A stretch of DNA of 64,000 bases, taken from Methylosinus sp. Sm6. GTDB taxonomy: Bacteria; Pseudomonadota; Alphaproteobacteria; Rhizobiales; Beijerinckiaceae. The notes beneath the pieces are model-generated. The model saw only the letters and a list, made by a program, of their open reading frames with translations. It was not told where the DNA came from and ran no database searches. The DNA lies in assembly GCF_019802345.1 (NCBI RefSeq), contig NZ_JAINDZ010000007.1:1-64000 (forward strand), given 5' to 3'. Made by a program: the position numbers and the translations under genes. Below are positions 30,532-53,650 of the stretch, one piece after another. Numbering within the stretch: position 1 is the first letter of the stretch; every line of letters starts with the position of its first letter.

Positions 30532-30594
30532 TTGCTTGTCCTCCCTTTCTGATGCGAAGCGACAGCGCGCCCGACCGACTGAGCGCGCTCTCCC

Positions 30595-31179: not shown

Positions 31180-31221
31180 GATATTTTTCTCTCCCTGCTC
31201 CGGATCCGCTAGACGGCTCGA

Positions 31222-32124: not shown

Positions 32125-32194
32125 GTTTCACCCTAGACAGCGGATCGCGATATGTATTCGAGCGTCCGGGCGTGTCGGCGTCCGAACGCGGAAG

Positions 32195-32219
32195 CCGCCG
32201 CCGGCTGAGCCGGCGGCGG
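32195..32219 (-). terminator. Strong hairpin between mxaF and mxaJ
   Basis: A perfect 11-base inverted repeat with a 3-base loop (CCGCCGCCGGC, TGA, GCCGGCGGCGG) starts 12 bases after the mxaF stop. There is no T-run. It could stabilise the mxaF message or cause partial termination so that mxaF is made in excess over mxaJGI. A similar hairpin follows xoxF. Confidence 0.55.
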
Positions 32220-32231
32220 TGCGGAAAGCGA

Positions 32232-35331: not shown

Positions 35332-35406
35332 TGGTGGGCGGCACAGGGATTGAACCTGTGACCCCTCCCGTGTGAAGGGAGTGCTCTCCCGCTGAGCTAG
35401 CCGCCC
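35332..35406 (-). tRNA. tRNA-Val (anticodon CAC)
   Basis: Read on the minus strand, GGGCGGC (acceptor 5' half) pairs with GCCGCCC. A D-arm TAGCTCAGCGGGAGAGC, an anticodon arm with stem CTCCC/GGGAG and loop TTCACAC, and a T-arm ACAGG-TTCAATC-CCTGT are all present. The anticodon is CAC, reading GUG. The CCA end is encoded. Confidence 0.96.
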
Positions 35407-35724: not shown

Positions 35725-35779
35725 TTCTGATTTATCAAATTTGCGCGCATACGGCTTCGCTCTAGACAGCCGCATTAAT

Positions 35780-35794
35780 ACCTATAAAATAGGT
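35780..35794 (+). promoter_or_regulatory. Palindrome just upstream of the receptor start
   Basis: ACCTAT, AAA, ATAGGT is a perfect 6-base inverted repeat 25 bases before the receptor ATG. It could be an operator overlapping the promoter or a short hairpin near the ribosome site. Confidence 0.35.
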
Positions 35795-35818
35795 CTGGAA
35801 AATGTGATGGAGGGGTTC

Positions 35819-38293
35819 ATGAAGGCTGATTCTCGGGCCAGAGCGCGCCAGTCGATGTTGCGCGGCCGGCCCGCCGTGCGGCGGTTCGCCCTCGCGACGA
35901 CGGCCTTGAGCGGCTTCGCCTCGCTGGCGGTCGCACAGGAGCCGGCGACGAGCGCGCAGGCCGGCGGCCAAGCCGCCGCCGCTCAGGTCGAGGAGGTCAA
36001 GGTCACCTCCCGTCTGCGCGAGGAGAAGGCCCAGGACGTTCCGCTTCCCGTCTCGGTCGTCGGCGGAAAGACCGCCGATCGTGAGCATATCGAGCGGCTT
36101 CAGGACTTCGCGCAAAAGGCGCCGAGCTTCACCTATTTCGTCGGCAATCCGCGCGGCTCCGGCGTCGCCATCCGCGGCACCTCGGGCGCGTTCCAGAGCA
36201 CGGACGGCGCGGAGAGCGCGGTCGGCTTCATCGTCGACAATGTGTTCTTCACCCACACCGGCTTCCAATGGGCCGACTATGTCGATCTGCAATCGCTCGA
36301 GATCGCGCGCGGCCCGCAGGGAACGCTGCTCGGCAAGAACACGACCGCCGGCGCCGTCGTCATTCACACGCAACTGCCCTCCTTCGCGCGCGGAGCGACG
36401 CTCGAAACTTCCTACGGCAACCGCAACCGCTTCATCGAGAAGCTCAACGTCACCGGGCCGATCATCGACGACCAGCTCGCCTATCGCGTGACCTTCTTTC
36501 TCGACAAGAGCGACGGCTTCATCCACGACAAGGTGACGGGTGCGGGCCTGCTCGACAACGACCGCTGGGGCGTGCGCGCGCAGCTGCTCTATGTCGGCGA
36601 CAATTTCACCGACCGCTTCATCTTCGAGCGTCTGCGTTCGGACGAATACAACAACTATTCGGCATTCAACGGCGACTCGATTCCGTTCTTCGCCAATGGC
36701 GCGGCGAATCCGAATCAGTTCTCGAAGCTGATAGCCACCCGCCTCGGCAAGACGGCGCTCAACATCAATGATCCTTACAGCCCCTATCTGACGCGCCTCG
36801 GCAAGCTCGATCAGCGCACGCATGGCGCGTCGAACGAAATCAATATCCAGATCGGAGCCAACACCCTCACCTCGGTGACCGCCTGGCGCAATTTCATTCT
36901 GCATCCGCGCAATTCGCTCGGCGCCGGCACGACCGTCGGCAACGAGCTCGAAGTCTCGTCCGGCGCCTTCGACACCTACGCCAATCAATTTTCGCAGGAG
37001 ATCCGCCTCGCCTCCCCCAAGGACGAGACGCTCTCATGGCAGGTCGGCCTCTATGGCCTGCGCGAGAACGTCTGGTCGTTGCGACACGACGATTACGGCA
37101 GCGACGCCGCGCAATGGTTCAGCAACAATATCGACACCGATCCCGGGCTTCTCAATGGCGTCGTTTGGCACGGCGACGGCAAGATGTCGACGACGAGCTT
37201 CGCAGCGTTCGGGCAAGCGACCTGGCGTATAGACGAGCAATGGGCGCTCACCGCCGGCCTGCGCGACACCTATGAGATCAAGACCGGTTCGAATGTCGCC
37301 TGGATCAGCGGCGCCAATCCCGCCTATAATTACGCCGCCGTCCTCGCGCTCGTGAAAAAAGCCAAGGGCTTGACCACTTTCGACACCGGCTTCAACGAAA
37401 AGGCCAACAACTCGCTTTCCGGCCTGTTCAATCCCTCCTATCGAGTCAACGAGAATTTTCTCGTCTACAGCTCGGTGTCGCGCGGCGAGAAGTCAGGCGG
37501 CGTCAACACCACGGCGCAGCCGGTCGGAACGACCGGCACATACCAGCCGGTCATCATCAAGCCGGAAGTCACCTGGGACTATGAGCTCGGCGCAAAGACG
37601 AGCTGGTTCGACAACAAGCTCGTCCTCAACGCCAATCTCTACTGGCAGGACACGTATAACTTCCAGACCCAGCTCACCGACGATTCGCTCCGCGACGGGT
37701 CAGGCAATCCGATCGTCAATTCTTATCTCGGAAATATCGGCCATGTGCGGTTCCGCGGCGTCGAATTCGACGGCCGTTGGCAGTCGCCGATCGAGCGCCT
37801 GGCCTTCACTTTTTCCGGAGCTCTCACGGAAGCTCGCTATATCGACCACCCCAAAGGTCCGCGGCCGGTCGATTGGGGTTACGACGGCGCGCCGACCTCC
37901 GTCAATCTGTCCGGGACCAAGGCGCTCGGCGTATCGCCGCTGACATTCAATGTCGGCGCGACATACGAGCATCCCATCGGCGCGGTCTTCGCCGACGCCG
38001 GACTGCCCGACCAGATTTTCGCCTATACCTATGTCAACGCCTCCTGGAAGGACACGACGCCCTTCTCCAATCCCTATTCCATCTACAAACTGGAGCAGCG
38101 GCCCTATACGCTCGTCAATCTCGGTATCGGCCTGCGGACAGAAGACGACAAATATAATCTGTTCTTCTGGGCTAAGAACCTGTTCGACGAGCGCTACAAG
38201 ACATCCATGACGATCGCCCTCTCGACGCCGAATTATTACACATTCGGCGATCCACGCTGGTTCGGCGGAACGCTGCGCGTAAAACTGTATTGA
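35819..38293 (+). CDS. TonB-dependent outer-membrane receptor
   Basis: This 824-residue receptor has a signal peptide (cleavage near VAVA-QEPATS, about residue 40). A plug domain begins around VEEVKVTSRLREEKAQDVP and contains GVAIRGTSG and LEIARGPQGTLLGKNTTAGAV. The ~650-residue barrel ends with the usual C-terminal pattern NLFDERYKT...GTLRVKLY. GGAGGGG before ATG 35819 sets the start. Such receptors import scarce metal complexes using TonB energy. It lies between the mxa and xox clusters and has its own operator-like sites, so a role in uptake of a metal such as lanthanide, copper or iron chelates is possible; the substrate cannot be read from the sequence. Confidence 0.93.
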   Translation: MKADSRARARQSMLRGRPAVRRFALATTALSGFASLAVAQEPATSAQAGGQAAAAQVEEVKVTSRLREEKAQDVPLPVSVVGGKTADREHIERLQDFAQKAPSFTYFVGNPRGSGVAIRGTSGAFQSTDGAESAVGFIVDNVFFTHTGFQWADYVDLQSLEIARGPQGTLLGKNTTAGAVVIHTQLPSFARGATLETSYGNRNRFIEKLNVTGPIIDDQLAYRVTFFLDKSDGFIHDKVTGAGLLDNDRWGVRAQLLYVGDNFTDRFIFERLRSDEYNNYSAFNGDSIPFFANGAANPNQFSKLIATRLGKTALNINDPYSPYLTRLGKLDQRTHGASNEINIQIGANTLTSVTAWRNFILHPRNSLGAGTTVGNELEVSSGAFDTYANQFSQEIRLASPKDETLSWQVGLYGLRENVWSLRHDDYGSDAAQWFSNNIDTDPGLLNGVVWHGDGKMSTTSFAAFGQATWRIDEQWALTAGLRDTYEIKTGSNVAWISGANPAYNYAAVLALVKKAKGLTTFDTGFNEKANNSLSGLFNPSYRVNENFLVYSSVSRGEKSGGVNTTAQPVGTTGTYQPVIIKPEVTWDYELGAKTSWFDNKLVLNANLYWQDTYNFQTQLTDDSLRDGSGNPIVNSYLGNIGHVRFRGVEFDGRWQSPIERLAFTFSGALTEARYIDHPKGPRPVDWGYDGAPTSVNLSGTKALGVSPLTFNVGATYEHPIGAVFADAGLPDQIFAYTYVNASWKDTTPFSNPYSIYKLEQRPYTLVNLGIGLRTEDDKYNLFFWAKNLFDERYKTSMTIALSTPNYYTFGDPRWFGGTLRVKLY

Positions 38294-38343
38294 GACGCTC
38301 CGCCGAGCGTGCTCGCGAAACTATATCCTTCCGGAGATTCGAT

Positions 38344-39057
38344 ATGACCCTCTTCCGCTCGTCTTTCCTGTCGCTGGCCGGCGTCTTGTCGGCGAGCCTC
38401 GCCTGCGCCGCCGACCTTCCCAGCCATAAGGCCCCGCCGATCGTCGCCCCGCCCGCATTCAGCTGGCAGGGCGGCTATATCGGCCTCTACGCCGGCGCGC
38501 TGCTCGGCGAAGGCCGGTTCCATTTCCTCGGCCAGGCGCCGCTGCGCGGCTCCGGCTTCGTCGGCGGCGGCACGCTCGGCTACAACTGGCAATACACGCC
38601 TGAAGTCGTGCTCGGCGTCGAAGCCGATTTCGGCTTCCGCGGCCAGATCGCGGCCGAGACCGTCTCCGGCATCTACCCGGGTCCGACCGACAGCGGCGTT
38701 CTCGGCACGCTCAGAGGCCGCGCCGGCTACGCCTTCACGCCGGGCTGGCTCCTCTATGCGACCGGCGGCTTCGCCTATGGAACGGATTTCGTGCCGCGAA
38801 CCTTCTCGGCCAATTCTTACGGCATTTCGGGACAGGACAGCACCGGCGGAACCGTTCGCGCGGGCTGGACCGTCGGCGGCGGCTTCGAGCACCAATTGTT
38901 CGATCGCGTCTCGGTGAAGGGCGAATATCTCTACGTCTGGCTCGTCGGCAGCAGCCCGAGCTACACGTCGAACATCGGCACGGTCAGCGGCGGCGTGAGC
39001 AGCGCCGGCCATGTCGTTCGCGCCGGCTTGAATTATCGCTTCGGCGGCGCGAACTGA
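38344..39057 (+). CDS. Outer-membrane beta-barrel protein (Omp25/OmpA-like porin family)
   Basis: This 237-residue protein has a signal peptide ending near CAADLPS (residue ~21). An eight-strand-barrel pattern typical of Rhizobiales small porins follows: AFSWQGGYIGLYAGALLGEG, GGTLGYNWQYTPEVVLGVEADF, LRGRAGYAFTPGWLLYATGGFAYG, and a C-terminal GHVVRAGLNYRFGG ending. The start at the methionine of MTLFRSS follows a GGAG site. It is 50 bases behind the TonB receptor on the same strand, so the two may be co-transcribed. Confidence 0.85.
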   Translation: MTLFRSSFLSLAGVLSASLACAADLPSHKAPPIVAPPAFSWQGGYIGLYAGALLGEGRFHFLGQAPLRGSGFVGGGTLGYNWQYTPEVVLGVEADFGFRGQIAAETVSGIYPGPTDSGVLGTLRGRAGYAFTPGWLLYATGGFAYGTDFVPRTFSANSYGISGQDSTGGTVRAGWTVGGGFEHQLFDRVSVKGEYLYVWLVGSSPSYTSNIGTVSGGVSSAGHVVRAGLNYRFGGAN

Positions 39058-40339: not shown

Positions 40340-41134
40340 TCAGGAGGCGTCGTCGACCGGCCATTCGCCGGTGAACACGCCGCCCTCATTGTCATGCGCC
40401 TCGACGCGGATCGTCTTCGCGCCATTGGGCTTGTAGGAGAAGCGGAAGGCCGGGTCCTCCGAGAGCGAAATGCCGCCCTCCATCGAGAAGATCAGCGCGT
40501 CGCCCTGGCGCACCTCCACCCGATCGATGAAATGGGCGGGGATATAGGCGCGCGAGATCGGGTCCATCTGCAGGCCGGAATTATTGGGATGGCGGATCAT
40601 GATCTGCGCCTCGCGGCGGGCGGGATCGGCGCTGGCGAAGCGGCGGAACTTCATCTTGCCGAGATTGGCGGCGGCCTCGTCCTGATCCTTGATCGCCGGC
40701 GCCGAGCAGCCGCCCGACGCCTTGACGAATTTCACCACCGAATGCAGCGCGCCATCGGCGGTCTGCGCGACGACATGCACATTGGTGTAGGAGTTGACCC
40801 GCACGCGCGTCTCGATCGAAGCGACCGCCGCGCCGTCGCCGAAAGTGAAGGCGGCGGCCATGGGCATGGGGTTCTCGTCGATGACCAGCGTCGCCTTGCG
40901 CACCCCCGGCTCGACGAGCGCGATGGTCATCGGCACGATGGCCGCATCCTCCGCCCGCACCGGCGCCTGCAGCGCCACGACGCCTTCATGCGCCGCGATG
41001 GAACGGCCCTGGAAAATGTCGGTGACGAGGCCGGGCCAGGGATCGATCTTCGGCGCCTGCGCGAGCGCGCCGCCGGCGCATGACGCGAGCCAGATCGCGA
41101 GCGCCGCAGCCTGGCGATGAGCCGATGATGTCAT
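40340..41134 (-). CDS. Quinoprotein dehydrogenase-associated SoxYZ-like carrier
   Basis: This is a 264-residue secreted fusion of a SoxY-like and a SoxZ-like domain. The signal peptide ends near ALA-QAPKID (residue ~26). The SoxY-like part ends in VKASGGCSAPAIK, whose Cys143 would be the carrier residue; SoxY proper carries its Cys in a Gly-rich tail. The SoxZ-like part follows (~165-264, MIRHPNNSGLQMD). This family travels with PQQ dehydrogenases and is proposed to take part in a quinoprotein relay. The start overlaps the histidine kinase stop by four bases, so it is the last gene of the leftward kai string. Confidence 0.88.
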   Translation of the reverse strand: MTSSAHRQAAALAIWLASCAGGALAQAPKIDPWPGLVTDIFQGRSIAAHEGVVALQAPVRAEDAAIVPMTIALVEPGVRKATLVIDENPMPMAAAFTFGDGAAVASIETRVRVNSYTNVHVVAQTADGALHSVVKFVKASGGCSAPAIKDQDEAAANLGKMKFRRFASADPARREAQIMIRHPNNSGLQMDPISRAYIPAHFIDRVEVRQGDALIFSMEGGISLSEDPAFRFSYKPNGAKTIRVEAHDNEGGVFTGEWPVDDAS

Positions 41135-42378
41135 GGACGGGCCCCTTTTCCCTCTTCTGCAAGCGCTCCGCCGGCCAGAGCTTCCGCCAGCGGCAATGTG
41201 AAACTGAAGATCGCGCCGCCGCCTGGATTGGGCTCGGCCCATATCTTCCCGTAATGCGCCGCGATGATCGAGCGCGAAATCGACAGGCCGACGCCGAGGC
41301 CGCCCGTCTTCATGGTGCGGAACGGCTCGAACACGCTCGCTCTGGCCGCTTCCGAGAGCCCGGCCCCCGTATCGGCGACATCGACTCTGATCTCGCCGTT
41401 GCGGGTCGTCGAGCTGGACACGACCAGTCGCCGTGACGCGGAAGCGAGCATCGCCTGCTGCGCGTTTCGCATCAGATTGACCAGAACCTGCTTGATCTGA
41501 ACTCCATCCGCGAGCACGAACTCATTGTCGGCGTTGAGATCGAGCGACAATTGGACGTCTTTGCCTTCCGCGCCGGCGACGACGAGCTCGGCGGACTTCC
41601 TGATGAGATCATGCATGCTATGGACGAGCTTGTCCGGCTCGCCGCGCGCCACGAACTCGCGCAAATGCGCGATGATGCGTCCTGCCCGGAGGATTTGCGC
41701 GGCGCCTGCGTCCAATGCGCTCTCGATATCGGCCAAACGCAGATGCGCGTCCAGGCGCAGAAGACGGCGGGCCGCGTTGAAATAGGTGGTCGCCGCCGCG
41801 AGCGGCTGATTGAGCTCATGCGCGAGGCCCGTGGCCATCTGCGCCAGAGCGTTGAGGCGTTCGGCCTCCACCAGCAGGCGCTCCATATGCTTGAGCTGGG
41901 TCAGATCGGTGAGGATGAGGAGGCGGGACGTCGTCGTCCCATCGAGCTGCAACGAGCTGATCGCGACGCTCGCGGGGATCTCCTCGCCATCGGCGCGTCG
42001 AAGCTGGATATCGATCCTCCTCGCCTCCGGCGCGGCGAGAAATTCGGAGAACGCCGAAGCCTGACCGGCGCCCAAGTGATCGAAAATCGTCGCGCCCACC
42101 AGCCTGTCGCGCGGCTTGCAGACCATCTCCGCCAATCGGGGATTGCAGTAGAGGACAATTCCATCGGCGTCGACATTGGCCGCGCCTTCGCCCATCTGCT
42201 CCACCATCGCGCGATAGACACGATCCGCCCCCTCCAGCGTGAAGACGCGAGGCCCGTCGCAGGCGTCGACGACGATCCCGCCGATCTCGCCGGCTCGGAT
42301 GGCGCGCAGCGTCTCCTCGGCCTCGGCGAGACGCCGCTGGAGATCCTCGATTTGCTGCTGCTCGGCGGCGGCTCCCAA
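41131..42378 (-). CDS. PAS-domain sensor histidine kinase (kai cluster)
   Basis: This 415-residue cytoplasmic kinase has no membrane helix. It begins with a coiled coil (QQQIEDLQRRLAEAEETLRAIR). A PAS domain follows (~55-165), then a HisKA region with phospho-acceptor His187 in GLAHELNQPLAAATTY, and a HATPase domain (NLMRNAQQAML, DTGAGLSE, GLGVGLSISR). The start is TTG with GGAG seven bases upstream. It lies 42 bases behind the second kaiB and overlaps the SoxYZ-like gene by four bases. It may serve as the output of the KaiC switch, as kinases near kaiBC in other non-cyanobacteria are suspected to do. Confidence 0.88.
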   Translation of the reverse strand: MGAAAEQQQIEDLQRRLAEAEETLRAIRAGEIGGIVVDACDGPRVFTLEGADRVYRAMVEQMGEGAANVDADGIVLYCNPRLAEMVCKPRDRLVGATIFDHLGAGQASAFSEFLAAPEARRIDIQLRRADGEEIPASVAISSLQLDGTTTSRLLILTDLTQLKHMERLLVEAERLNALAQMATGLAHELNQPLAAATTYFNAARRLLRLDAHLRLADIESALDAGAAQILRAGRIIAHLREFVARGEPDKLVHSMHDLIRKSAELVVAGAEGKDVQLSLDLNADNEFVLADGVQIKQVLVNLMRNAQQAMLASASRRLVVSSSTTRNGEIRVDVADTGAGLSEAARASVFEPFRTMKTGGLGVGLSISRSIIAAHYGKIWAEPNPGGGAIFSFTLPLAEALAGGALAEEGKGARP

Positions 42379-42420
42379 AGGCAGCTCCGTTCTTTCACCT
42401 ATACGGGGCGACCCGTCGCG

Positions 42421-42720
42421 TCATCGCGCAATCAATCCCAGTCCGCTCGCCAGCCGCGAGCCATTGCTCATGTCGCCGATGATCCGCCTGACCGGGAGCG
42501 GCAGCGACTTGACCAAAGTCGGCGCGCCGACGACCTGATCCTCACGGGCGCGCTGCGGATGCCGATAAATATCCACGACTTCGAGATCATAGCGCCCGGC
42601 GAGGCGCTCGTCGCAGATATCGCGCACGGCGCGAATCGCGCGCACAGATCTCGGACTGGCTCCTGTCACGAACAGGCAGAGGACGTAGCGCGTCGAAGGC
42701 GTCGGCGCGGTATCGGTCAT
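42421..42720 (-). CDS. KaiB-domain protein (second copy)
   Basis: This 99-residue thioredoxin-like protein has the KaiB pattern YVLCLFVTGASPRSVRAIR, DLEVVDIYRHPQ, VVGAPTLVKSLPLPVRRIIGD. The start at 42720 is set by GAGGAG eight bases upstream; an ATG seven codons earlier lies before that site. It is 29 bases behind the first kaiB. In the cyanobacterial clock KaiB binds the CI ring of KaiC after a fold switch; the second copy may compete or have another partner. Confidence 0.92.
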   Translation of the reverse strand: MTDTAPTPSTRYVLCLFVTGASPRSVRAIRAVRDICDERLAGRYDLEVVDIYRHPQRAREDQVVGAPTLVKSLPLPVRRIIGDMSNGSRLASGLGLIAR

Positions 42721-42749
42721 TGAACATGCTCCTCGAATCATCGCGCGCC

Positions 42750-43061
42750 CTAGAGAAGGTCGAGCCCGACGAGAACTTTTTCCTGATTGGATAGGTCGCC
42801 GATGATTTTTTTCAGCGGCGGCGGCAGTTTTCGCACCAGGGTCGGCAGCGCCACGATCTGGTCGCCGGCGGCGAGCTGCGGTCGCTCGACCAGATCGACG
42901 ATCTCGATGATGTAACGCCCGTGTAGATTTTTCTCACAAATGCGGCGCAGATTGGCGATCGCCGTGAGCGATTTCGGAGTCTGGCCCGCGACATAGAGCC
43001 GCAACCGCCAAGCCTGAGTGTCCTCGCCGATGTGGCGCTCGCTCTCGCTCGGCCGGATCAC
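42750..43061 (-). CDS. kaiB: KaiB-domain protein (first copy)
   Basis: This is a 103-residue KaiB with [39 protein letters not shown] and [21 protein letters not shown] (described as positions ~18-38, 50-67 and 71-91). Length and pattern match KaiB of the KaiBC class. Its ATG overlaps the kaiC stop by four bases, so it is coupled to kaiC and is the more likely KaiC partner of the two KaiB proteins. Confidence 0.94.
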
Positions 43062-44509
43062 GCGCCCGGCTCCTGTCGCAATGTCGTGATCGACGGATCG
43101 AGCGGCTCATCGACCACAGTGAAGCCGGCGTCTTCGAGGACGAATTCGCGCACCCTCCGCGAATGCGCCATGCCGCGCGACTTGACGATGCAAAGGGCCC
43201 GTCTGGCGTCTCCCGCGATCTCGAGGCGCCGCAGCGATATCCAGGTGTCCATCAGTGACGAGACGCTCGCCTCGGCCTCGTCGCGACGCAAATTGGTCGC
43301 GACGAGCTCGGTGAAAACCGTGGTCACATTGTGTGCTTTCAATATATCGGCGAGACGCAGCAGCATCGCATGCACCTCGCGCCCCGAGCCGATCGAGAGG
43401 AAGCTCGAGATCGGATCGATCACCGCGAGCTTCGGCTGGAAGCACTGGACCTCGCGCAGGATCTTGGCGAGATGCGTCTCCAGCCCGTAATAGCTCGGCC
43501 GCGCGGCGTTGAAGCGCAGCAGGCCGCTCGTCGCCCAGCGCCCGAGATCGACGCCGATGCTCGCCATGTTGCGGATGATCTGCGGGGCCGACTCCTCGAG
43601 CGCGACATAGACGACTTTTTCGCCGCGCCCGCAGCCCGCCTCGGCGAAATGGGCGGCGAGGCTCGACTTGCCCGTTCCCGCCGCCCCGGAGACCAGAATG
43701 CTCGAGCCGACGAAATAGCCCTCGCCGCCCAGCATGGAGTCGAGCGAGGCGACGCCGGTGGACATGCGTTCCGGGCAGGCGGAATGATCGAGCCCGGCCG
43801 AGGAGATCGGCAGGACCGAGGCGCCTCGCTCGTCGATCAGAAAAGGATATTCGTCGGCGCCATGCGCCGAGCCGCGATATTTGAGAATGCGAAGGCGTCG
43901 GGTCGAAAGCTGATCGACGATGCGGTTGTCGAGAACGATGACGCAGTCGGAGACATATTCCTCGAGGCCGTAGCGCGTCAGGTGGCTCGCGCCGCGTTCG
44001 CCGGTGATGATCGCCGTCAGTCCGCGCTCCTTGAGCCAGCCGAACAAGCGACGCAGTTCCGACCTCAGCGCCGCTTCATTCGAGAGGCCGGCGAACAGCG
44101 CTTCGATCGTGTCGATCGCCACGCGCTTGGCGCCGATCGTATCGACGGCATAGCCCAAGCGGACGAAGATGCCTTCGAGATCATATTCGCCGCTCTCCTC
44201 GATCTCGCTGCGCTCCAGGCGCACATGGTCGACAACCAGAAGCTCGCGTTTCGTCAGATCATCGACGTCGAAGCCGAGCGAGGTGAAATTCGCCCTCAGA
44301 TCCTCGGGCCGCTCCTCGAAGCTCATGAAGACGCCCGGCTCTCCGTAGCGAAGCGCGCCGTTCACGATAAAGCTCATCGAAAGCAGCGTCTTTCCGCTGC
44401 CCGGCCCCCCGCAGAGCAAGGTTGGACGCCCCTTCGGCAACCCTCCCATGGTCATTTCGTCCAGGCCCGATATGCCGGTCGGAGCCTTCGCAAGAAAATT
44501 TGCGGTCAT
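43058..44509 (-). CDS. kaiC: KaiC, double-RecA-domain ATPase/autokinase
   Basis: This 483-residue protein has two KaiC domains. CI carries Walker A GGPGSGKT (34-41) and Glu65-Glu66; CII carries Walker A GAAGTGKS (275-282), a Glu pair at VALEESAP and a C-terminal phosphorylation region [10 protein letters not shown]. There Ser417-Ser418 stand where cyanobacterial KaiC has Ser431-Thr432. The C-terminal tail is shorter than in Synechococcus KaiC, where KaiA binds, and no kaiA is present. The start was placed at the methionine of [10 protein letters not shown], since the upstream frame is not family-like. KaiC probably acts as an ATP-driven timer or stress switch with KaiB. Confidence 0.95.
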
Positions 44510-44646
44510 GAGCGGGCGCTTTGTCCGAAAGAACGCGAGCTTATTTTGCGCCCTTTCGCCTCGTTTGGCAAACCTGCGAAGGGCGCTCTCGGGACGCCCT
44601 CCGGACGCGCTTCCGCCTCTGTCACAGCCCGGTCTCGGCCGCCGCC

Positions 44647-45570
44647 TCAAGGGCTCTCCCATTCGAGCTCGGCGAAGCCGGCCGTCGCGTTGCGGACATT
44701 GTAATCGTCGAACAGGCTCCAGGCGGGCTTCTCGCTCTGGCCCGCCGACGTCGCGGCCGCGCCGAGAGTCTCGCCCTTGGCGATCGAGCGTCGCAGATCG
44801 CGGGTCAGGCGCTCGAGATAGGCGGCCTGGGCGTCGAGCGCCTGCGGCCAGGGGGCGACCGCCGGCCCATGGCCCGGCACGACACGCACGGCTTCGATCT
44901 TCCGCAACTCGTCGACGACGGCGAGAAAGCCGAGGAGGCTCCCGTCGACGATCGGCACATGGCGCAGGAACAGCAGGTCGCCGGCGAACAGCGTCCCGCT
45001 CGCCGAGTCGCGCACAGTGAGATCGGCGTCGCTATGCGCCGTGCGCCAGGCGCGCAGCTCGATGCCGCGGCCCCCGAGATCGAGCGTCATTGCGCCGTCG
45101 ACCGTCAGGCTCGGCGCGATGAGCGCCACATCATCGACGAGCGGGCCGAGCGCCTCCCGGAAAGAAGAGAGATAGTGCGGACCGCGCGCGGCGAGCGCCC
45201 GCGGCAGGTTCTTGTGCCCGACGAACACGGCGCCCGAGTCTCGGAAGGCAATATTCCCGAAAATATGGTCGGGATGCACATGCGTGTTGATGACATAGCG
45301 AATGGGCTTGGACGTGCGCTGCTGCAATGCAGCGAGAAACGCTCGCCCCTCCGCGGCGCTTCCTCCGGTGTCGATGACCGCGACCGCCTCCGCGCCGACG
45401 ATCGCTCCGAGATTGGCGATGTCGCCGAGGTTCTCGCGCGTCATCATCGCGAGCCGCCCCTGATGAACGAACACGCCCGGCGCGATCTCGGTCAGATCGA
45501 ACGCGCTCGCCGCGCTCGCGAAGAGGCAGAACAGGGCGATGGCAAGCGCGTCTCTAGTGCATTGCAGCAT
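44647..45570 (-). CDS. Quinoprotein relay-type zinc metallo-hydrolase (SoxH-like beta-lactamase fold)
   Basis: This 307-residue periplasmic metallo-beta-lactamase-fold protein has a signal peptide ending near ASA-FDLTEI (residue ~23) and the metal motif THVHPDH (96-102). Further ligands are expected at HSDAD and VVPGHGPAV. It resembles the SoxH-related hydrolases that accompany PQQ dehydrogenases and the SoxYZ-like carrier. It diverges from xoxF with 315 bases between, and it precedes kaiC by 137 bases on the same strand. I chose ATG 45570 because it begins the signal peptide. Confidence 0.87.
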   Translation of the reverse strand: MLQCTRDALAIALFCLFASAASAFDLTEIAPGVFVHQGRLAMMTRENLGDIANLGAIVGAEAVAVIDTGGSAAEGRAFLAALQQRTSKPIRYVINTHVHPDHIFGNIAFRDSGAVFVGHKNLPRALAARGPHYLSSFREALGPLVDDVALIAPSLTVDGAMTLDLGGRGIELRAWRTAHSDADLTVRDSASGTLFAGDLLFLRHVPIVDGSLLGFLAVVDELRKIEAVRVVPGHGPAVAPWPQALDAQAAYLERLTRDLRRSIAKGETLGAAATSAGQSEKPAWSLFDDYNVRNATAGFAELEWESP

Positions 45571-45885
45571 GGCGGATTCCGCGTCCTTTTCTAGCCTTTT
45601 CCCGCAAGAAACGGGGAAGTCTGGCATGGCTTTTGGGGATTGCGCTTCAATCCTGTGCGACATATTATCCCGCCGTTTCCGACCAAAAAGACGTTTTCCG
45701 GCCGGGAACCGGAGGATGTCTCGACGGAGATTTGGCGGGGCTGCGGGCGCGGCGTTTCCGCCTCGTCGCCGTGGTGAAAATCACGAGGAAACGGCTTCCC
45801 AAAGCCTGTGGCGTCTCAAAAAAGGCGCGATGTCGGCGACGTGGCCGGGCCTTTTGCGCGGTAATGTCGTCAGGAGGAAAAGCTC
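45571..45885. promoter_or_regulatory. Divergent promoter region of xoxF
   Basis: These 315 bases serve xoxF to the right and the metallo-hydrolase/kai string to the left. AGGAGGAAAAG lies just before the xoxF ATG, an excellent ribosome site. AAGACG occurs near 45688, similar to the hexamer upstream of mxaF, but I cannot define the rest of the promoter. There is no protein gene that I accept here. Confidence 0.45.
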
Positions 45886-47721
45886 ATGCAAAAGCTGTTG
45901 TTGTCGACTTCGGTAGGGATCCTCGCGCTGTTCGGAGCCGGCGTGGCGTACGCCGCCGACGAGCTGCTCGAGCTCCAGAAGAACCCGAAGGATTGGGCCC
46001 TGCCGACGGGCGACTACGCCAATCTCCGCTATTCCAAGCTGAAGCAGATCACCACCGAGAACGTCGGCAAGCTGGCTCCGGCCTGGAGCTTCTCGACCGG
46101 CGTGCTGCGCGGCCACGAGGGCGCTCCGCTGGTGCTCGGCGACGTGATGTATGTCCATACTCCGTTCCCCAACATCGTTTATGCGCTCGATCTCAACAGC
46201 GACGGCAAGATCCTCTGGAAGTATGAGCCCAAGCAGGATCCGAGCGTCGTTCCGGTGATGTGCTGCGACACCGTGAACCGCGGCCTCGCCTATGGCGACG
46301 GCAAGATCTTCCTCGCGCAGGCCGACACCACCCTCGTCGCGCTCGACGCCAAGACCGGCAAGCTGGTCTGGTCGGTGAAGAACGGCGATCCTTCGAAGGG
46401 CGCCACCTCGACCGCCGCTCCGCATGTCTTCAAGGACAAGGTCTTCGTCGGCATCGCCGGCGGCGAGTTCGGCGTGCGCGGCAGCATCACCGCTTATAAC
46501 ATCAAGGACGGCTCGCTCGCCTGGCGCGGCTACTCGATGGGCCCGGACAGCGACACGCTGATCGACGGCGAGAAGACCACCCATCTCGGCAAGCCGGTCG
46601 GCAAGGATTCGGGGCTGAACACCTGGGAAGGCGATCAGTGGCAGATCGGCGGCGGCACCACCTGGGGCTGGTATTCCTATGATCCCGAGCTGAACCTCGT
46701 CTATTACGGCTCCGGCAACCCCTCGACCTGGAACCCCGCTCAGCGGCCGGGCGACAATCGTTGGTCCATGACCATCTGGGCGCGCGATCTCGACAAGGGC
46801 ACGGTGAAGTGGGTCTATCAGATGACCCCCCACGACGAGTGGGACTATGACGGCATCAACGAGATGATCCTCGCCGACCAGACGATCGGCGGCCAGGCTC
46901 GCAAGACGCTCGTCCACTTCGACCGCAACGGCTTCGGCTACACGCTCGACCGCGTGACCGGCGAGCTGCTCGTCGCCGAGAAATATGACCCGGCCGTCAA
47001 CTGGGCGACCAAGGTCGACATGGACAAGAGCTCCAAGACCTATGGCCGTCCGCTGGTCGTCGCCAAATATTCGACGCAGCAGAACGGCGAGGACGTGAAC
47101 ACCAAGGGCGTCTGCCCGGCGGCTCTCGGCTCCAAGGACATGCAGCCGGCGTCCTTCTCGCCGGACACCGGCCTGTTCTATGTGCCGACCAACCACGTCT
47201 GCATGGACTATGAGCCGTTCCGCGTCAGCTACACCGCGGGCCAGCCCTATGTCGGCGCGACGCTGGAGATGTTCCCGCCGCCCGGCGAGACCAACATGGG
47301 CAATTTCATTGCCTGGGACGCCCGTGTCGGCAAGATCGTCTGGTCGAACAAGGAGCAGTTCTCGGTGTGGTCGGGCACGGTCACCACGGCCGGCGGCCTC
47401 GCCTTCTACGGCACCCTCGAGGGCTATCTGAAGGCGGTCGATGTGAAGACCGGCAAGGAGCTCTACAAGTACAAGACTCCGTCGGGCATCATCGGCAATG
47501 TGATGACCTATGACCACAAGGGCAAGCAATACGTCGCCGTCCTGTCCGGCGTCGGCGGCTGGGCCGGCATCGGCCTCGCGGCGGGCCTGTCGAAGAGCAA
47601 CGAAGGCTTGGGCGCGGTCGGCGGCTATCGCGCGCTGTCCGACTACACCGCCCTCGGCGGCGTGCTGACGGTCTTCACCCTGCCCGACTCCGCTCTGCCG
47701 ATCATCGCTCCGGCGAACTGA
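45886..47721 (+). CDS. xoxF: Lanthanide-dependent methanol dehydrogenase XoxF
   Basis: This 611-residue periplasmic PQQ enzyme oxidises methanol, using a lanthanide as the PQQ-bound metal. The signal peptide ends near AYA-ADELLE (residue ~23). Active-site features are the vicinal Cys126-Cys127, ligands Glu194 and Asn278, catalytic Asp320, and Asp322 in [10 protein letters not shown]; this extra Asp is diagnostic for lanthanide enzymes, where MxaF of this same window has Ala. It heads xoxF-xoxG-xoxJ-CXXCW on the plus strand. In methylotrophs with both enzymes, lanthanide availability switches expression from mxaF to xoxF. Confidence 0.98.
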
Positions 47722-47743
47722 GGCCGCGGAAAAAATAGCTCTG

Positions 47744-47781
47744 GCGCCCGGCGAATCGCCTCTCGGCGCGTCGCCGGGCGC
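47744..47781 (+). terminator. Strong hairpin between xoxF and xoxG
   Basis: A perfect 11-base inverted repeat (GCGCCCGGCGA at 47744-47754, TCGCCGGGCGC at 47771-47781) starts 23 bases after the xoxF stop. It has no T-run. Like the hairpin after mxaF, it may protect the upstream message or attenuate transcription into xoxG and xoxJ. Confidence 0.55.
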
Positions 47782-47818
47782 TCGTGTCGTGTAGAGGAAG
47801 CATCGGGAGGATGAGGTA

Positions 47819-48337
47819 ATGAGACTGCCGCTCGTCGGGGCCGTGGCCCTGAGCGTCTTCGTCGTTGGAACGACCGCGCGGGCCGAACCGCCGGGAGACC
47901 CGACCGCGGTCAAGGAAGTGGACGGAAAGTATTTCGACAAGAACGGCGACCCGACGTACAAGGTCCAGGCCGACGGCACGGTCGATTGGTACACCTTCTC
48001 CGGCTATCGCCGCTATCACGCCGAGTGCCACGTCTGCCACGGCCCCAACGCCGAAGGCTCGACCTACGCGCCGGCGCTGAAGAATTCGGTCAAGACCTTC
48101 AATTACGCCGAATTCTACGGCATCGTCGTCAGCGGCCGCGAGAACAAGGTGGCGGGCAATGACAGCGTCATGCCGGCTTTCGCCGACAACAAGAACGCCA
48201 TGTGCTACATCGACGACCTCTATATCTATCTCCGCGCCCGCTCGACCGAAGCGGTCGGCCGCGGCCGTCCGGAGAAGAAAGAAGCGAAGCCAGCGGCCTT
48301 CGCCGAGGCCGAAGCGAAGTGCATGAGCGGCAAGTGA
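47819..48337 (+). CDS. xoxG: XoxG, c-type cytochrome partner of XoxF
   Basis: This 172-residue periplasmic cytochrome has a signal peptide ending near ARA-EPPGDP (residue ~22), one heme site CHVCH (Cys70, Cys73, His74), a likely distal Met in SVMPAF, and two further cysteines (AMCYIDD and AKCMSGK) that give the four-Cys pattern of methanol-metabolism cytochromes. It accepts electrons from XoxF. GGGAGGATGAGGTA precedes the ATG. It follows xoxF by 97 bases. Confidence 0.93.
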   Translation: MRLPLVGAVALSVFVVGTTARAEPPGDPTAVKEVDGKYFDKNGDPTYKVQADGTVDWYTFSGYRRYHAECHVCHGPNAEGSTYAPALKNSVKTFNYAEFYGIVVSGRENKVAGNDSVMPAFADNKNAMCYIDDLYIYLRARSTEAVGRGRPEKKEAKPAAFAEAEAKCMSGK

Positions 48338-48381
48338 GCCGAAGGCGGATGGCCGGCGGCGGCATGGGCCAAAGGTTCGCC

Positions 48382-49260
48382 ATGTTTCGTGAGATCGCTG
48401 TCTCCATGGTCGCCGTCGCGGGTGTTCTCGCGACGGCCCCCGTCCGGGCGCAGTCGCCCGAGCAATTCGCTCGTCCCGGAGCGGACGACGCCAAGGGCGC
48501 GATCGAGCTGATCGACCCCAAAGTGCTGCGCGTCTGCGCCGATCCCAATAATCTGCCGTTCTCCAATAGCGCCGGCGAGGGCTTCGAGAACAAATTGGCG
48601 CAATTCGTCGCCGCCAAGCTCGGCAAGGACATCGCCTATGTCTTTTATCCGGGCGCGACGGGCTTTATTCGCAACACGCTGAACGCGCATCTCTGCGACG
48701 TCGTGATGGGCATGCCGCAGGGCGACGACCTCGTCCAGCCGACCAATCCCTATTACCGGACGTCCTATGCGATCGTCACTCGCGCCGGCTCCGACCTCGA
48801 GGGGCTGAAGACGCTCGCCGATTCCCGCCTCACCGCAAAAGGCCGGCGCATCGGCCTCGTCGCCAATACCCCGCCGGGCAATCTGCTCGCGCGCCTCGGC
48901 CTTCTCGCCGCGGTGAAACCCTATCCGCTGGTGGTCGACACGCGCGTCGACGCCCCCGCGGCCGATATGATCCGGGACCTCGAATCCGGCGTGATCGACG
49001 TCGCGATTCTGTGGGGACCGATCGCCGGCTATCATGTGAAGAGGTCGAACGGGCGGCTGGTCGAGGCGATGTTGGCGCAGGAGCCGGGGACGCGCATGAG
49101 CTTTCGCATCGGCATGGGCGTGCGCCATTCCGATCAGGAATGGAAGCGCGAGCTCAATCGTCTCATCGCTCAGAATCAACATGAGATCGACAGGCTGCTC
49201 GCCTCCTATGGCGTGCCGCTGCTCGACGAGGCGGGCGCGCCGATCGCCGTCGATCCGTGA
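48382..49260 (+). CDS. xoxJ: XoxJ, periplasmic binding-protein-like factor
   Basis: This 292-residue protein is the xox counterpart of MxaJ. The signal peptide (MFREIAVSMVAVAGVLATAP) is followed by KVLRVCADPNNLPFSNSAG and a solute-binding-protein fold; the later VIDVAILWGPIAGYHVKRS segment is typical of the family. XoxJ is thought to interact with XoxF and help its activation. AAAGG lies six bases before ATG 48382, which also gives the best signal peptide; ATGs at 48349 and 48364 are alternatives. It is 44 bases behind xoxG. Confidence 0.92.
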   Translation: MFREIAVSMVAVAGVLATAPVRAQSPEQFARPGADDAKGAIELIDPKVLRVCADPNNLPFSNSAGEGFENKLAQFVAAKLGKDIAYVFYPGATGFIRNTLNAHLCDVVMGMPQGDDLVQPTNPYYRTSYAIVTRAGSDLEGLKTLADSRLTAKGRRIGLVANTPPGNLLARLGLLAAVKPYPLVVDTRVDAPAADMIRDLESGVIDVAILWGPIAGYHVKRSNGRLVEAMLAQEPGTRMSFRIGMGVRHSDQEWKRELNRLIAQNQHEIDRLLASYGVPLLDEAGAPIAVDP

Positions 49261-49270
49261 TCTTCGCCCT

Positions 49271-49819
49271 ATGAGCTTGCGCGCCGCGACAATCCTTTTG
49301 GCCTTTTTCGGAACCGCCGCCGCCGCCGAGCGGCCGCCCGAGCCGTCCGGCTATCGGCTCGGCGATTATCGCGCTCCGGTTCCGGCGACCCTCGCGGGAG
49401 CCCGCGTGCTCTCCACCGCGGACGTCTTCGGCCTCTGGCGCGACAAAGCCGCCGTCTTCATCGATGTGCTGCCGCGTCCGCCGAGGCCCGCCGGCCTGCC
49501 GCCGGACGCCGTCTGGCGCGACAAGCCGCGCTACGACATTCCGGGCAGCGCCTGGCTGCCGGACACCGGCTTCGGCGCCCTCTCCGAGGCGGCGCAACGC
49601 TATTTCGAAGAGGGGCTGGAGACGGCGACGGCGAACGACCGGCGCCGCGCCATCGTCTTCTATTGCCTCGCCGATTGCTGGATGTCGTGGAACGCCGCCA
49701 AGCGCGCGCTCGCGCTCGGCTATGCGAGCGTCGGCTGGTATCCGGAAGGCGCCGACGGCTGGGAAAAGGCCGGGCATCCGCTGGAGCCGCGCGAGCCGGA
49801 GCCCGGACGGGAGCGATAA
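49271..49819 (+). CDS. PQQ-dependent catabolism-associated CXXCW-motif protein (rhodanese-like)
   Basis: This 182-residue secreted protein has a signal peptide (LRAATILLAFFGTAAAAE), a rhodanese-like segment with FIDVLPRPPRPAG and DIPGSAWLP, and the double-Cys site FYCLADCWMSWNAAKRA. The spacing seen here is Cys-Leu-Ala-Asp-Cys-Trp. The family occurs beside PQQ alcohol dehydrogenases and may handle thiol or sulfur chemistry in the same relay as the SoxYZ-like carrier and SoxH-like hydrolase on the other side of xoxF. It starts 10 bases after the xoxJ stop. Confidence 0.88.
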   Translation: MSLRAATILLAFFGTAAAAERPPEPSGYRLGDYRAPVPATLAGARVLSTADVFGLWRDKAAVFIDVLPRPPRPAGLPPDAVWRDKPRYDIPGSAWLPDTGFGALSEAAQRYFEEGLETATANDRRRAIVFYCLADCWMSWNAAKRALALGYASVGWYPEGADGWEKAGHPLEPREPEPGRER

Positions 49820-49933: not shown

Positions 49934-52900
49934 TCAGATGATCGAAAAATCGGCGTTGGTCAGCGCCAATCCGTTCGACAGGGTCGCAAACTGGATCGCC
50001 GCGGTCGCTCCCGCGCCATCCGCATCATAATAGAGATTGCCGTTCGTGCTGTTGTAGATGATCCGGTCCGATGCGTCAGCCGCGGACGCGCCGATGTGGA
50101 ACGCGGCCGACGACAATGTCGCGCCCGTCAGGGCGGTGAAGATCGCATTGTCGAGGCTGATCTTGTCCGCCGTGACGTCGAAATCGGCGATCGTGTCGAC
50201 ATTGTCGAGATATGCGCCGTTCAGCGCGGTGTTGAAAACGAAATTGTCGCTTCCCGCGCCGCCAGCGAGGTAATCATTGCCGGCGCCGCCGTTGAGCTTG
50301 TCGGCGCCATCGTCGCCGTAGAGGTTGTCATTGCCGCCGGCGCCATCGATCGTGTCGTTTCCGGCGCCGCCGTAGACATAATCGGCTCCCGCGCCGCCGT
50401 TCAATTTGTCGACGCCGTCGTCTCCATAGAGATAATCATTGCCGGAGTCGCCGTTGATCGTGTCGTTGCCGGCCTCGCCATGAAGATTATCCTCGCCGTC
50501 GCCGCCAAAGATCCGATCGCCGCTGGCGTCGATGGAGCTGCCGCCGAAGCCGCCATAGATCGTGTCGTTGCCCTCCGAGCCGTACAGCGTGTCGGCGCTG
50601 TCGCCGCCATACAGATAGTCGTTGCCGGCGTCGCCCTTGAGCGTGTCGGCGCCCGCTTCGCCATACAGAACGTCGTTGTCGTCGCCGCCATTGAGCTTGT
50701 CGGCGCCAGCTCCGCCGTAGAGGTAGTCGGCGCCGGCGCCGGACATGATCGTGTCGGCTGCGTCGCCGCCATGGAAGCGGAACTGCTCGATGCCGGCGGT
50801 TCTCGTCCCGTCGCTCGCGGCGCTGGCGCTGTTGAGCGTGAGAACGAGCCCGACCGTGTCCGTCGAGCGGTCCAATTCGAGGGCATCGAAGCCCGCGCCG
50901 CCGTTGATGAGCTTCTTGCCGAGACCGGCATAGATCGTGTCGTTGCCGCTCCCTCCGGCGAGCGTGTCGCTTCCGAGGCCGCTGTAGAGCACGTCATTGC
51001 CGCCGCCACCGTCCAGACTGTCGTTTCCATCCTCGCCGTAGAGATAGTCGTTGCCCGAGTCGCCGGTGATCGTGTCATTGCCGGCCTCGCCGTGGAGATT
51101 ATCGTTTCCGTCGCCGCCAGAGATCCGGTCGTCGCTGGCGTCGACGGAGCTATTGCCGAAGCCGCCATAGATCGTGTCGTTGCCGTCAGAGCCATACAGC
51201 GTGTCGGCGCTGTCGCCGCCATAGAGGTAGTCGTTTCCGGCGGCGCCTCTGAGCGTGTCGGCGCCCCCCTCGCCATACAGAATGTCGTTGCCGTCGCCGC
51301 CATCGAGCTTGTCGGCGCCGGCGCCGCCGTAGAGATAGTCGGCGCCGGCGCCGGACACGATCCTGTCGGCGGCGTCGCCGCCATGGAAGCGGAACTGCTC
51401 GATGCCGGCGGTCTTCGTCCCGTCGCTGGCGGCGCTGGCGCTGTTGAGCGTGAGAACGAGCCCGAGCGTGTCGGTCGAGCGGTCCAATTCGAGGACATCG
51501 AAACCCGCGCCGCCGTCGATCAGCTTCTTGCCGAGACCGGCGTAGATCGTGTCGCTGCCGCCCCCTCCGGCGAGCGTATCGATTCCGAGGCCGCTGTAGA
51601 GCACGTCATCGCCGTCGCCGCCGTCCAGACTGTCGTTTCCATCCTCGCCGTAGAGATAGTCATTGCCCGCGTCGCCGGTGATCGTGTCGTCGCCGGCCTC
51701 GCCGTGGAGGCTGTCGTTTCCGTCGCCGCCATGGATCGTGTCGGCGGACGCATCGACCGTGCTGTTGGCCGAGCCGCCATAGATCGAGTCGTTGCCCGCG
51801 TCGCCATTGATCACGTCGGCGCCGGCGCCGCCGTAGAGATAGTCGTTTCCCTCGCCGCCGTTCAGCGTATCGGCGCCGTCTTGTCCGTAGACGCTGTCCC
51901 CTCCGTCCTTCCCCGACAGCACATCAGCGCCGGCGCCGCCATAGAGAGTGTCCGCATAGTCCCCGCCGCTCACGGTGTCGTTGCCGCTGCCGCCATAATA
52001 GCGCAGAACCTCGACGTTCGTGGTGCGGCTGCCGTCGCTTCCAGCGCCGCCGTTCAGCGTGAACGTGCGGCCGGTCGACGCGCTCGAGCGGTCGATCTCG
52101 ACAAAATCATAGCCGGAGCCGCCGTCGATCGTCTTCTTGTCGAGAAGAGCGTAGATGACGTCGTCGCCCGCGCCCCCGATGACGACGTCGACTCCGGCGC
52201 CCGTATAGATGGTGTCGGCGCCGGCGCCGCCGTTCAGCGTGTCGTTGCCGAGTCCGCCATAGAGATAGTCGGCGCCGTCGTCGCCGTAGAGCGTGTCATT
52301 GCCGGCCTCGCCATGGAGACTGTCATCGCCGTCGTCGCCATGAACGATGTCGTTCGACGCATCGGCCGTGTCGTTTCCCGTGCCGGCATATACCGTGTCG
52401 TTGCCGTCTCCGGCGGAGATCACATCGGCGTCCATGCCGCCGTAGATCGTGTCATTGCCGGCGCCGCCGTCGAGCCTGTCCGCTCCTATATCGCCGGAAA
52501 GATAATCGTCGCCATCGCCGCCGGCCAATAAATCCTTGCCGGCGCCCCCGTATAGCGTGTCGTTCCTCGTTCCTCCATCGATGTCGTCATCGCCGGAGCT
52601 GCCATAGAAGCGAAGCTGCTCGATGCCCGCGGTCGTCGAGCCGTCGCTCGCGGCGCTGCTGCTGTTGAGAACGAGCGTGAGCCCGATCGAGTCCGTCGAA
52701 CGGTCGAGCACGAGAAGGTCGTATCCGGTCCCGCCATTGATGTGTTTTACGCCGCGGTCGGCGTAGATCGTGTCGTTGCCGGCGCCGCCGTCGACCGTGT
52801 CGACGCCGAGACCCGTATATATGGTGTCGCCGCCGTTGCCGCCGTTCAGCGTGTCGTTGCCGCCGTCGCCATAGAGATAATCATTGCCGTCGCCGCCGGC

Positions 52901-53125
52901 GATCGTATCGTTGCCTGCCTCCCCATGAAGGCTGTCGTTGCCGTCGCCGCCGTTGATCGTGTCGGCGGATCCATCATCGTCCGCGCTGTTGCCGTTGCCG
53001 CCATAGATCGTGTCATTGCCGTCGTTGCCGTTGATCGTGTCGGCGCCGCTCTTGCCGTAAATATAATCGTCGATATTAGAGCCATTGATGATGTTGGGAG
53101 TGTTATCGCCAGTGATCGTCGGCAT
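49934..53125 (-). CDS. RTX-type calcium-binding exoprotein with four ~204-residue modules
   Basis: This 1063-residue protein consists almost entirely of GGxGxDxxx nonapeptides that form calcium-binding beta-rolls. Four times the rolls are interrupted by a conserved ~75-residue spacer with pattern (L/I)DGGxGxDxLxLDRS(T/S), then TLN and DG-x-TAGIEQ-x-RF(H/Y)G. The repeat period is about 612 bases, and the two C-terminal copies are nearly identical. The last ~110 residues (NVDTIADFDVTADKISLD onward, ending ADFSII) look like a type I secretion signal. GGAGAAG before ATG 53125 sets the start. No HlyB/HlyD/TolC genes are nearby. The role is probably surface-layer or biofilm-related; function is not assignable. 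Confidence 0.9.
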   Translation of the reverse strand: MPTITGDNTPNIINGSNIDDYIYGKSGADTINGNDGNDTIYGGNGNSADDDGSADTINGGDGNDSLHGEAGNDTIAGGDGNDYLYGDGGNDTLNGGNGGDTIYTGLGVDTVDGGAGNDTIYADRGVKHINGGTGYDLLVLDRSTDSIGLTLVLNSSSAASDGSTTAGIEQLRFYGSSGDDDIDGGTRNDTLYGGAGKDLLAGGDGDDYLSGDIGADRLDGGAGNDTIYGGMDADVISAGDGNDTVYAGTGNDTADASNDIVHGDDGDDSLHGEAGNDTLYGDDGADYLYGGLGNDTLNGGAGADTIYTGAGVDVVIGGAGDDVIYALLDKKTIDGGSGYDFVEIDRSSASTGRTFTLNGGAGSDGSRTTNVEVLRYYGGSGNDTVSGGDYADTLYGGAGADVLSGKDGGDSVYGQDGADTLNGGEGNDYLYGGAGADVINGDAGNDSIYGGSANSTVDASADTIHGGDGNDSLHGEAGDDTITGDAGNDYLYGEDGNDSLDGGDGDDVLYSGLGIDTLAGGGGSDTIYAGLGKKLIDGGAGFDVLELDRSTDTLGLVLTLNSASAASDGTKTAGIEQFRFHGGDAADRIVSGAGADYLYGGAGADKLDGGDGNDILYGEGGADTLRGAAGNDYLYGGDSADTLYGSDGNDTIYGGFGNSSVDASDDRISGGDGNDNLHGEAGNDTITGDSGNDYLYGEDGNDSLDGGGGNDVLYSGLGSDTLAGGSGNDTIYAGLGKKLINGGAGFDALELDRSTDTVGLVLTLNSASAASDGTRTAGIEQFRFHGGDAADTIMSGAGADYLYGGAGADKLNGGDDNDVLYGEAGADTLKGDAGNDYLYGGDSADTLYGSEGNDTIYGGFGGSSIDASGDRIFGGDGEDNLHGEAGNDTINGDSGNDYLYGDDGVDKLNGGAGADYVYGGAGNDTIDGAGGNDNLYGDDGADKLNGGAGNDYLAGGAGSDNFVFNTALNGAYLDNVDTIADFDVTADKISLDNAIFTALTGATLSSAAFHIGASAADASDRIIYNSTNGNLYYDADGAGATAAIQFATLSNGLALTNADFSII

Positions 53126-53650
53126 GAGTCGCTTCTCCGCGTGAGAAAATAAAACGTCGTGTTGACAAAGACGTCGATTTGCTTCAAACGGCTCGCAGAG
53201 CACAGCATTTCCGAGACATGCCGCGCCATCACGCCCGTCGGAGCAAGCAACGATCGCGCTCCACGAACATAAATACACCAAATGTCCGGCGCCGTCACGC
53301 CTATCTGTGCGGTATGCTTGTTCGTGCGCTGGACGACAACGCGCTCTCCCATGTCGATGCTCGCGTCGACTTCTTCAACACCGATGGTGGGCGGCGTCGC
53401 GACGCGCGGATCTCGTCGGCCATGCGGCGCCGCTCGCGAATGTCGAGATGTGGGACGAGCCTCGAATACCGACATTCCGCGGCACGCGCGGCCTTCGTGG
53501 CCGTTCATGCTGGTCATGACGACATTGCGCGCCGGCCGCTTGTCCGCGCCATAGGCCGCGATCAGAGCGCCCCCCCGCCGGTCTCGCGCGCCGCAGCCGT
53601 GCCGCGCGGGTCGCCGTCGAGACCGACGACTCTCCCTTCCAACCTGCGCC
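53126..53650. other. Intergenic region upstream of the RTX gene
   Basis: These 525 bases lie between the RTX gene and the downstream end of the HdeD-like gene. Several short frames exist but none looks like a protein. An AT-richer stretch near 53140-53165 is probably the RTX promoter. No RNA gene was recognised. Confidence 0.4.

Follow-up and report, generated by a model that had tools for sequence, protein, structure and literature searches.

A kaiC-kaiB-kaiB-PAS kinase cassette, probably inserted once, within the quinoprotein relay operon beside xoxF in Methylosinus sp. Sm6

In the alphaproteobacterium Methylosinus sp. Sm6, four genes of the kai type stand between two genes of the quinoprotein relay, next to the methanol dehydrogenase (MDH) gene xoxF. 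How did they come to be there, and do they take part in methanol oxidation? The window considered here is the whole of the first 64,000 nucleotides of contig NZ_JAINDZ010000007.1 (assembly GCF_019802345.1). Its leftward string consists of a metallohydrolase, kaiC, kaiB, kaiB, a PAS histidine kinase and a SoxYZ-like carrier, and diverges from xoxF-xoxG-xoxJ-CXXCW. These identities, proposed in a first-pass annotation made from the letters alone, were all borne out by gene calls and profile scans, as was the divergence by gene order. The explanation that we hold with high confidence is that a divergent kai cassette from an unsampled lineage was inserted once into the xox relay operon, where it is probably coupled to soxYZ and where its KaiC is proposed to act as a latch.

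The case for an insertion comes from the genus. The carrier gene is found in all ten genomes sampled, KaiC, by protein search, in that of the window only (1 of 10). About 20 kb around the carrier were compared in the nine congeners, one of which (L141) is represented by a contig of 12.3 kb ending within xoxF. Each of the nine has soxYZ and the hydrolase gene adjacent and xoxF following on the other strand, with no kai gene found; xoxG, xoxJ and the CXXCW gene come after xoxF in the eight whose contig reaches that far. With the closest congener (L134, XoxF 97%), the alignment to the window holds through the hydrolase stop codon and is noise beyond it.

The other end of the cassette is also informative. 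The spacer before soxYZ carries in the congeners a purine-rich ribosome site, which is GGAGG in eight of the nine and TGAGGAAA in L142. In the window a spacer of this type with its ribosome site is absent, and soxYZ (40340..41134, minus strand) begins at 41134, inside the stop of the kinase gene (41131..42378, minus strand), the two sharing the bases ATGA at 41134-41131. The carrier is a secreted protein and its signal peptide is intact. These comparisons give good support to a single insertion in which soxYZ was probably coupled to the kinase in translation. The kaiC-kaiB-kaiB-PAS kinase set would have entered between the hydrolase and carrier genes in this species or in its recent ancestors, leaving the hydrolase intact to its stop codon and replacing the short spacer that bore the soxYZ ribosome site. 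The carrier would now be read after the kinase, presumably from a shared transcript, and its production would follow kinase translation through the ATGA overlap. Co-expression of cassette and carrier is likely.

Two other origins were weighed against this insertion. The first is an assembly artefact, or a contaminant segment joined to the xox locus. The genome is a draft of 162 contigs and the arrangement was seen once; however, the assembly is 99.99% complete with 0.77% contamination, at the kinase/soxYZ junction the ATGA start looks functional and the signal peptide is intact, and the GC content at third codon positions (GC3) resembles that of the neighbours, so that an artefact is very improbable. 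The second, still harder to credit, is that the cassette stood in the relay operon originally and was deleted from the other lineages. No point in support of such an ancestral arrangement was found, all nine congeners have the short spacer and ribosome site at the same position, and 155 other carrier-bearing genomes of the family show no neighbouring KaiC among the places listed.

As a separate feature of the soxYZ 5′ region, an inverted repeat, GCGAGCCTTCnGGCyCGC, lies in the signal-peptide part of the gene in six of the nine congeners under a strict pattern (L135, L137, L138, L139, L140 and L142). By eye it is imperfect in L134 and L141, and none is present there in L136 or in the window.

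Is the arrangement shared beyond the genus? Samples of 397 genomes from the family and 398 from the phylum, with some genomes in both, were searched. In the family, KaiC passes its cut-off in 32 genomes and the carrier in 156, with both in 27; the two stand together only in the window's genome, among the places listed, and elsewhere, when they share a contig, about 0.7 Mb or more lies between them. The corresponding numbers in the phylum are 32, 59 and 13, and the two are together only in the window's genome; several gammaproteobacterial carrier matches in this sample have stops within the frame and probably represent soxY and soxZ as separate genes. Reading of the flanks gives the same picture. 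The 31 other KaiC loci of the family show no relay or xox match in flanks of 4.6 to 19.5 kb (7 loci under 15 kb), and 80 KaiC loci from genome contigs likewise show neither in theirs (at least 21 kb in 45 loci, under 10 kb in 12). No relay gene occurs in the 19.5-kb flanks of the KaiC loci of genomes G258 and G324 (L171 and L181), for which the second and the fourth carrier copy, respectively, fall outside the places listed. A conserved kai-relay module is rejected, because co-location in genus, family and phylum and the reading of the flanks show one genome only. The first-pass annotation had named in advance a restriction to a single genome as the result that would speak against its proposal, and within these samples that is the result of the neighbourhood search. 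Of its idea that a KaiBC switch is wired into the relay genes, the physical part stands, with kai genes inside the operon and soxYZ joined to them, but a shared functional system does not, as the arrangement occurs in one genome only.

The ends of the string belong to the families expected beside a pyrroloquinoline quinone (PQQ) dehydrogenase, as had been proposed. The carrier scores 278.8 bits with TIGR04557 (cut-off 140) and the hydrolase (44647..45663, minus strand) 396.6 bits with TIGR04559, zinc metallohydrolase 2 (cut-off 280), and both are close to xoxF. Two curated relay families flanking a four-gene kai cassette on one strand is more than a chance juxtaposition. In Pseudomonas putida KT2440 the same two families (PP_2677-PP_2678) accompany a PQQ dehydrogenase of the lanthanide type in the ped cluster, where the carrier and SoxH-like hydrolase genes are adjacent, unlike in the window, where the kai cassette separates them (PMC12997753). 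In line with the first-pass annotation, searches confined to open-access literature gave no paper in which kai genes are connected to xoxF or to relay genes.

The cassette, by its gene order, is of a common type; it is its place here that is new, and its proteins are trimmed. Indeed, kaiC, two kaiB and a kinase occur in this order in 71 of the 80 genome-contig loci and in 21 of the 31 other family loci. Methylobacterium (Methylorubrum) extorquens AM1 is a similar case, being an alphaproteobacterial methylotroph with the order kaiC1-kaiB2-kaiB1-kaiR1, two kaiB genes and a double-Ser phosphosite; its KaiC1 and KaiC2 are reported to serve in temperature and UV stress, with a temperature-dependent UV resistance (PMC8069551). 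As to neighbourhood, no xox or relay gene was found beside kai in the 31 other genomes of the family, among which AM1 itself was not identified. Rhodopseudomonas palustris, an alphaproteobacterium without kaiA, likewise has kaiC, kaiB and a PAS kinase in one cluster; the difference is that one kaiB is named there, and that the function shown concerns the timing of nitrogen fixation and growth in day-night cycles (PMC4794148).

It may be that the cassette came by accident to lie in an operon that is expressed, that any work it does concerns an unrelated stress, such as the temperature and UV stress of AM1, and that soxYZ merely tolerates the neighbourhood. This is rather probable. The arrangement is a singleton in all three samples, the same cassette stands elsewhere in unrelated surroundings, with no relay gene in the often short flanks of the 80 and 31 loci, a stress role is reported for AM1 (PMC8069551), and the cassette has a promoter-like match of its own (see below). 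The tight ATGA coupling with soxYZ and the intactness of all the reading frames speak against mere tolerance.

KaiC is the protein from which most can be said about a possible function. Its gene (43058..44509, minus strand) encodes 483 amino acids, scoring 659.2 bits with NF006799 (cut-off 408) and lying below the level of cyanobacterial circadian KaiC (TIGR02655 circ_KaiC, 314.4 bits against a cut-off of 546.25). The open frame begins at 44662 and a Met is found at 44509. A start at this Met, 137 nt past the hydrolase, is most likely, because the alignments of most homologues begin at about residue 57 of the longer frame and the preceding codons look non-coding, the 45 codons between hydrolase stop and Met having a GC3 of 0.644 against 0.816 in kaiC; a TTG overlapping the hydrolase stop may be an alternative start. 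Two ATPase domains are present, with Walker A and paired catalytic Glu motifs at positions 34, 275, 64 and 304, and the CII phosphosite is Ser-Ser, as in 104 of 112 aligned KaiCs. The C-terminal coil is missing: after the last aligned position 16 amino acids remain, against a median of 100 in the 112 KaiCs.

The closest solved chains are those of Rhodobacter (Cereibacter) sphaeroides KaiC (8db3, E 3.9e-178, and 8dba). The KaiBC hourglass of this organism (PDB 8dba, 8db3, 8fwi, 8fwj) resembles the window's system in having no KaiA and a Ser-Ser phosphosite, and it is reported to respond to the ATP-to-ADP ratio (PMC10076222). The coil of R. sphaeroides KaiC joins two hexamers into a dodecamer and is required for dephosphorylation; the protein cut at residue 490 forms a hexamer, which is phosphorylated at much the same rate, shows very little dephosphorylation and can be dismantled by KaiB (PMC10076222). 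The window KaiC, lacking the coil, differs from the natural R. sphaeroides protein and resembles this engineered delta-coil form (PMC10076222). Among the residues of the allosteric network reported for R. sphaeroides, the Trp and the Arg are kept in the window and the Tyr is replaced by Cys at position 440.

Since both ATPase sites and the Ser-Ser phosphosite are kept, KaiC would be expected to form ATP-driven, self-phosphorylating hexamers to which KaiB could bind. Because removal of the coil in R. sphaeroides nearly abolishes dephosphorylation while phosphorylation is retained (PMC10076222), the coil-less protein would tend to stay phosphorylated unless KaiB dismantles the ring, and would thus be a slow energy-state latch rather than a daily timer. 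The earlier suggestion of KaiBC as a timer is weakened, since dephosphorylation of R. sphaeroides KaiC is driven by the very coil that is missing here.

KaiC has a long end branch (1.25 in a tree of 42 KaiCs) near alphaproteobacterial KaiCs, in a place that is uncertain. The three longest end branches of the tree (window, L189 and L120) are all short-tailed. A tie between coil loss and fast evolution is at most suggested by this post hoc comparison, as the short-tailed L188 and L045 are not long-branched. A genome search returned no strong second KaiC or KaiB, and two weak partial matches to the KaiC profile (43.9 and 23.6 bits).

The two KaiB proteins exceed the Pfam KaiB cut-off of 27 with 90.6 and 79.7 bits and are both below the cut-offs of the circadian KaiB equivalogs. 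The first (kaiB1, 42750..43061, minus strand) has R. sphaeroides KaiB as its closest solved chain (8fwj, E 1.3e-31), and its GTG start overlaps the kaiC stop in GTGA at 43061-43058. The second (kaiB2, 42421..42741, minus strand) is more divergent, has an alternative ATG at 42711 and is separated by 42 nt from the kinase. The kinase, whose TTG start is tentative, contains PAS, HATPase_c (76.4 bits) and HisKA (23.5 bits, below the cut-off of 26.9) domains. In 102 of 111 kai loci the gene that follows kaiB encodes a relative of its N-terminal PAS half, and the kinase half is less alike; for this reason the sensor part is taken to belong to the kai cassette and the output part to vary. Ten related kaiB-adjacent proteins were scanned, of which six end in a receiver (Response_reg); HWE kinases are found in two, and one further PAS protein lacks a kinase domain. 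The receiver, absent from the window kinase, is hence not universal among its relatives. With its His box and ATPase and no receiver, the kinase would signal to a response regulator encoded elsewhere.

These proteins bear on another reading, namely that the cassette was kept for its control of XoxF-dependent methanol oxidation, or for reading the energy state to which this oxidation leads, with KaiC phosphorylation and the kinase setting the expression of relay or MDH genes and with soxYZ dosed through kinase-coupled translation. All four kai-cassette genes are open with their catalytic motifs kept, the ATGA couples soxYZ to the kinase in place of the lost ancestral ribosome site, two MDH clusters (mxa and xox) lie within the same 20 kb, and KaiBC of R. 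sphaeroides responds to the ATP-to-ADP ratio (PMC10076222). On the other side, no second genome in the genus, family or phylum samples has the arrangement, no response regulator was identified within the cassette, and KaiC and the kinase are without parts common in their relatives. Such co-option is therefore unlikely, and a regulatory effect of the kai cassette on methanol oxidation is possible.

What lies between the hydrolase and kaiC is relevant to how the cassette is expressed. The string had been called tightly packed with overlaps at kaiC/kaiB and kinase/SoxYZ; both four-base overlaps are present, as GTGA and ATGA, but tight packing does not extend to the probable 137-nt gap between hydrolase and kaiC (44510..44646, minus strand). 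This gap contains a promoter-like match at 44571-44543, one of two such in 5.7 kb against 0.4 expected. A repeat element was rejected as its source, as the gap is single-copy in the genome. A stable RNA within the gap is not favoured either (fold z-score -1.27, with 18 of 200 shuffles as good). No terminator was found across the kai region in a terminator scan. The gap has no convincing match to the hydrolase-soxYZ spacers of the congeners, the best case being L134, with 5 of 100 shuffles as good.

Several points weigh against the inserted and coupled cassette with its latch. Given the promoter-like match, the kai genes might share with soxYZ a transcription separate from that of the hydrolase. 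No foreign composition is seen by GC3 in the kai genes (0.76 to 0.82 against 0.82 in the hydrolase). The borders revealed neither a donor nor a target-site repeat nor a mobile gene, though no search dedicated to repeats was made there. The genus sample comprises a single genome per species, and the base-level borders rest on alignment to one close relative, L134. Tails under 45 amino acids occur in 7 of the 111 other KaiCs, so that coil loss alone is no sign of altered function. Moreover, no nearby donor emerges, as the best identity to KaiC is 62% among the matches listed from 80 loci, from which records near its own genome may have been left out.

The divergent arm begins with xoxF (45886..47721, plus strand; TIGR03075, 763.4 bits), followed on the same strand by xoxG, a cytochrome c (47819..48337; TIGR03874, 232.6 bits), xoxJ (48202..49260; TIGR03871, 293.4 bits), whose true start is probably downstream of the start of the open reading frame (ORF), near 48325, and the CXXCW protein (49181..49819; TIGR03865, 221.5 bits), whose true start is also probably downstream of that of its ORF; all four exceed their cut-offs. 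XoxF carries the motif DEWDYD; at this place the window's second MDH (32235-34106) reads DEWDYA. The Asp of DYD we take to mark the lanthanide type, and DYA presumably the calcium type. The calcium-type cluster (DYA MDH, MoxJ, MoxG, MoxR-like AAA, DUF58 and VWA; 26100-34106) lies about 12 kb from xoxF, so that calcium- and lanthanide-type clusters are neighbours in the window. In L134, too, the MDH and MoxJ genes lie close to the xox locus.

Between an aminotransferase and a trypsin-like gene, beside a tRNA-Val (35332-35406), the window has genes for a TonB-dependent receptor and for an outer-membrane barrel (35741-39054). The flanking genes of this site are only about 200 nt apart in L134, so that here the two genomes differ at the methanol locus for a second time; a role in metal-chelate uptake is a guess. 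A 1115-amino-acid protein with RTX-type calcium-binding repeats is encoded on the opposite strand directly beyond the xox genes (49934-53281), and an ORF at 56156-57256 matches DndB, associated with DNA-sulfur modification, with 63 bits.

What the finding would mean depends on the fate of the cassette. If it is a passenger, the locus offers a clean before-and-after view of a whole kai cassette entering an operon, with the empty site in nine sister genomes and the ribosome site lost. If it was co-opted, it would be, within the open-access literature searched, the first case of a methylotroph whose kai genes are linked to a defined metabolic operon. It would also be the natural equivalent of the coil-less KaiC made by engineering, through which the purpose of KaiA-less KaiBC would become directly testable in an organism grown on methanol. 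The most specific proposal, more doubtful than co-option in general, is that the operon of lanthanide-dependent methanol oxidation has captured a naturally coil-less KaiC, a pair of KaiBs and a PAS kinase without receiver, which serve it as a latch for the energy state. Methanol oxidation would set an ATP state that would be stored as KaiC phosphorylation and relayed by the kinase, with SoxYZ made in step through the start-stop coupling; if this were true, a clock module would have been turned into a local metabolic switch.

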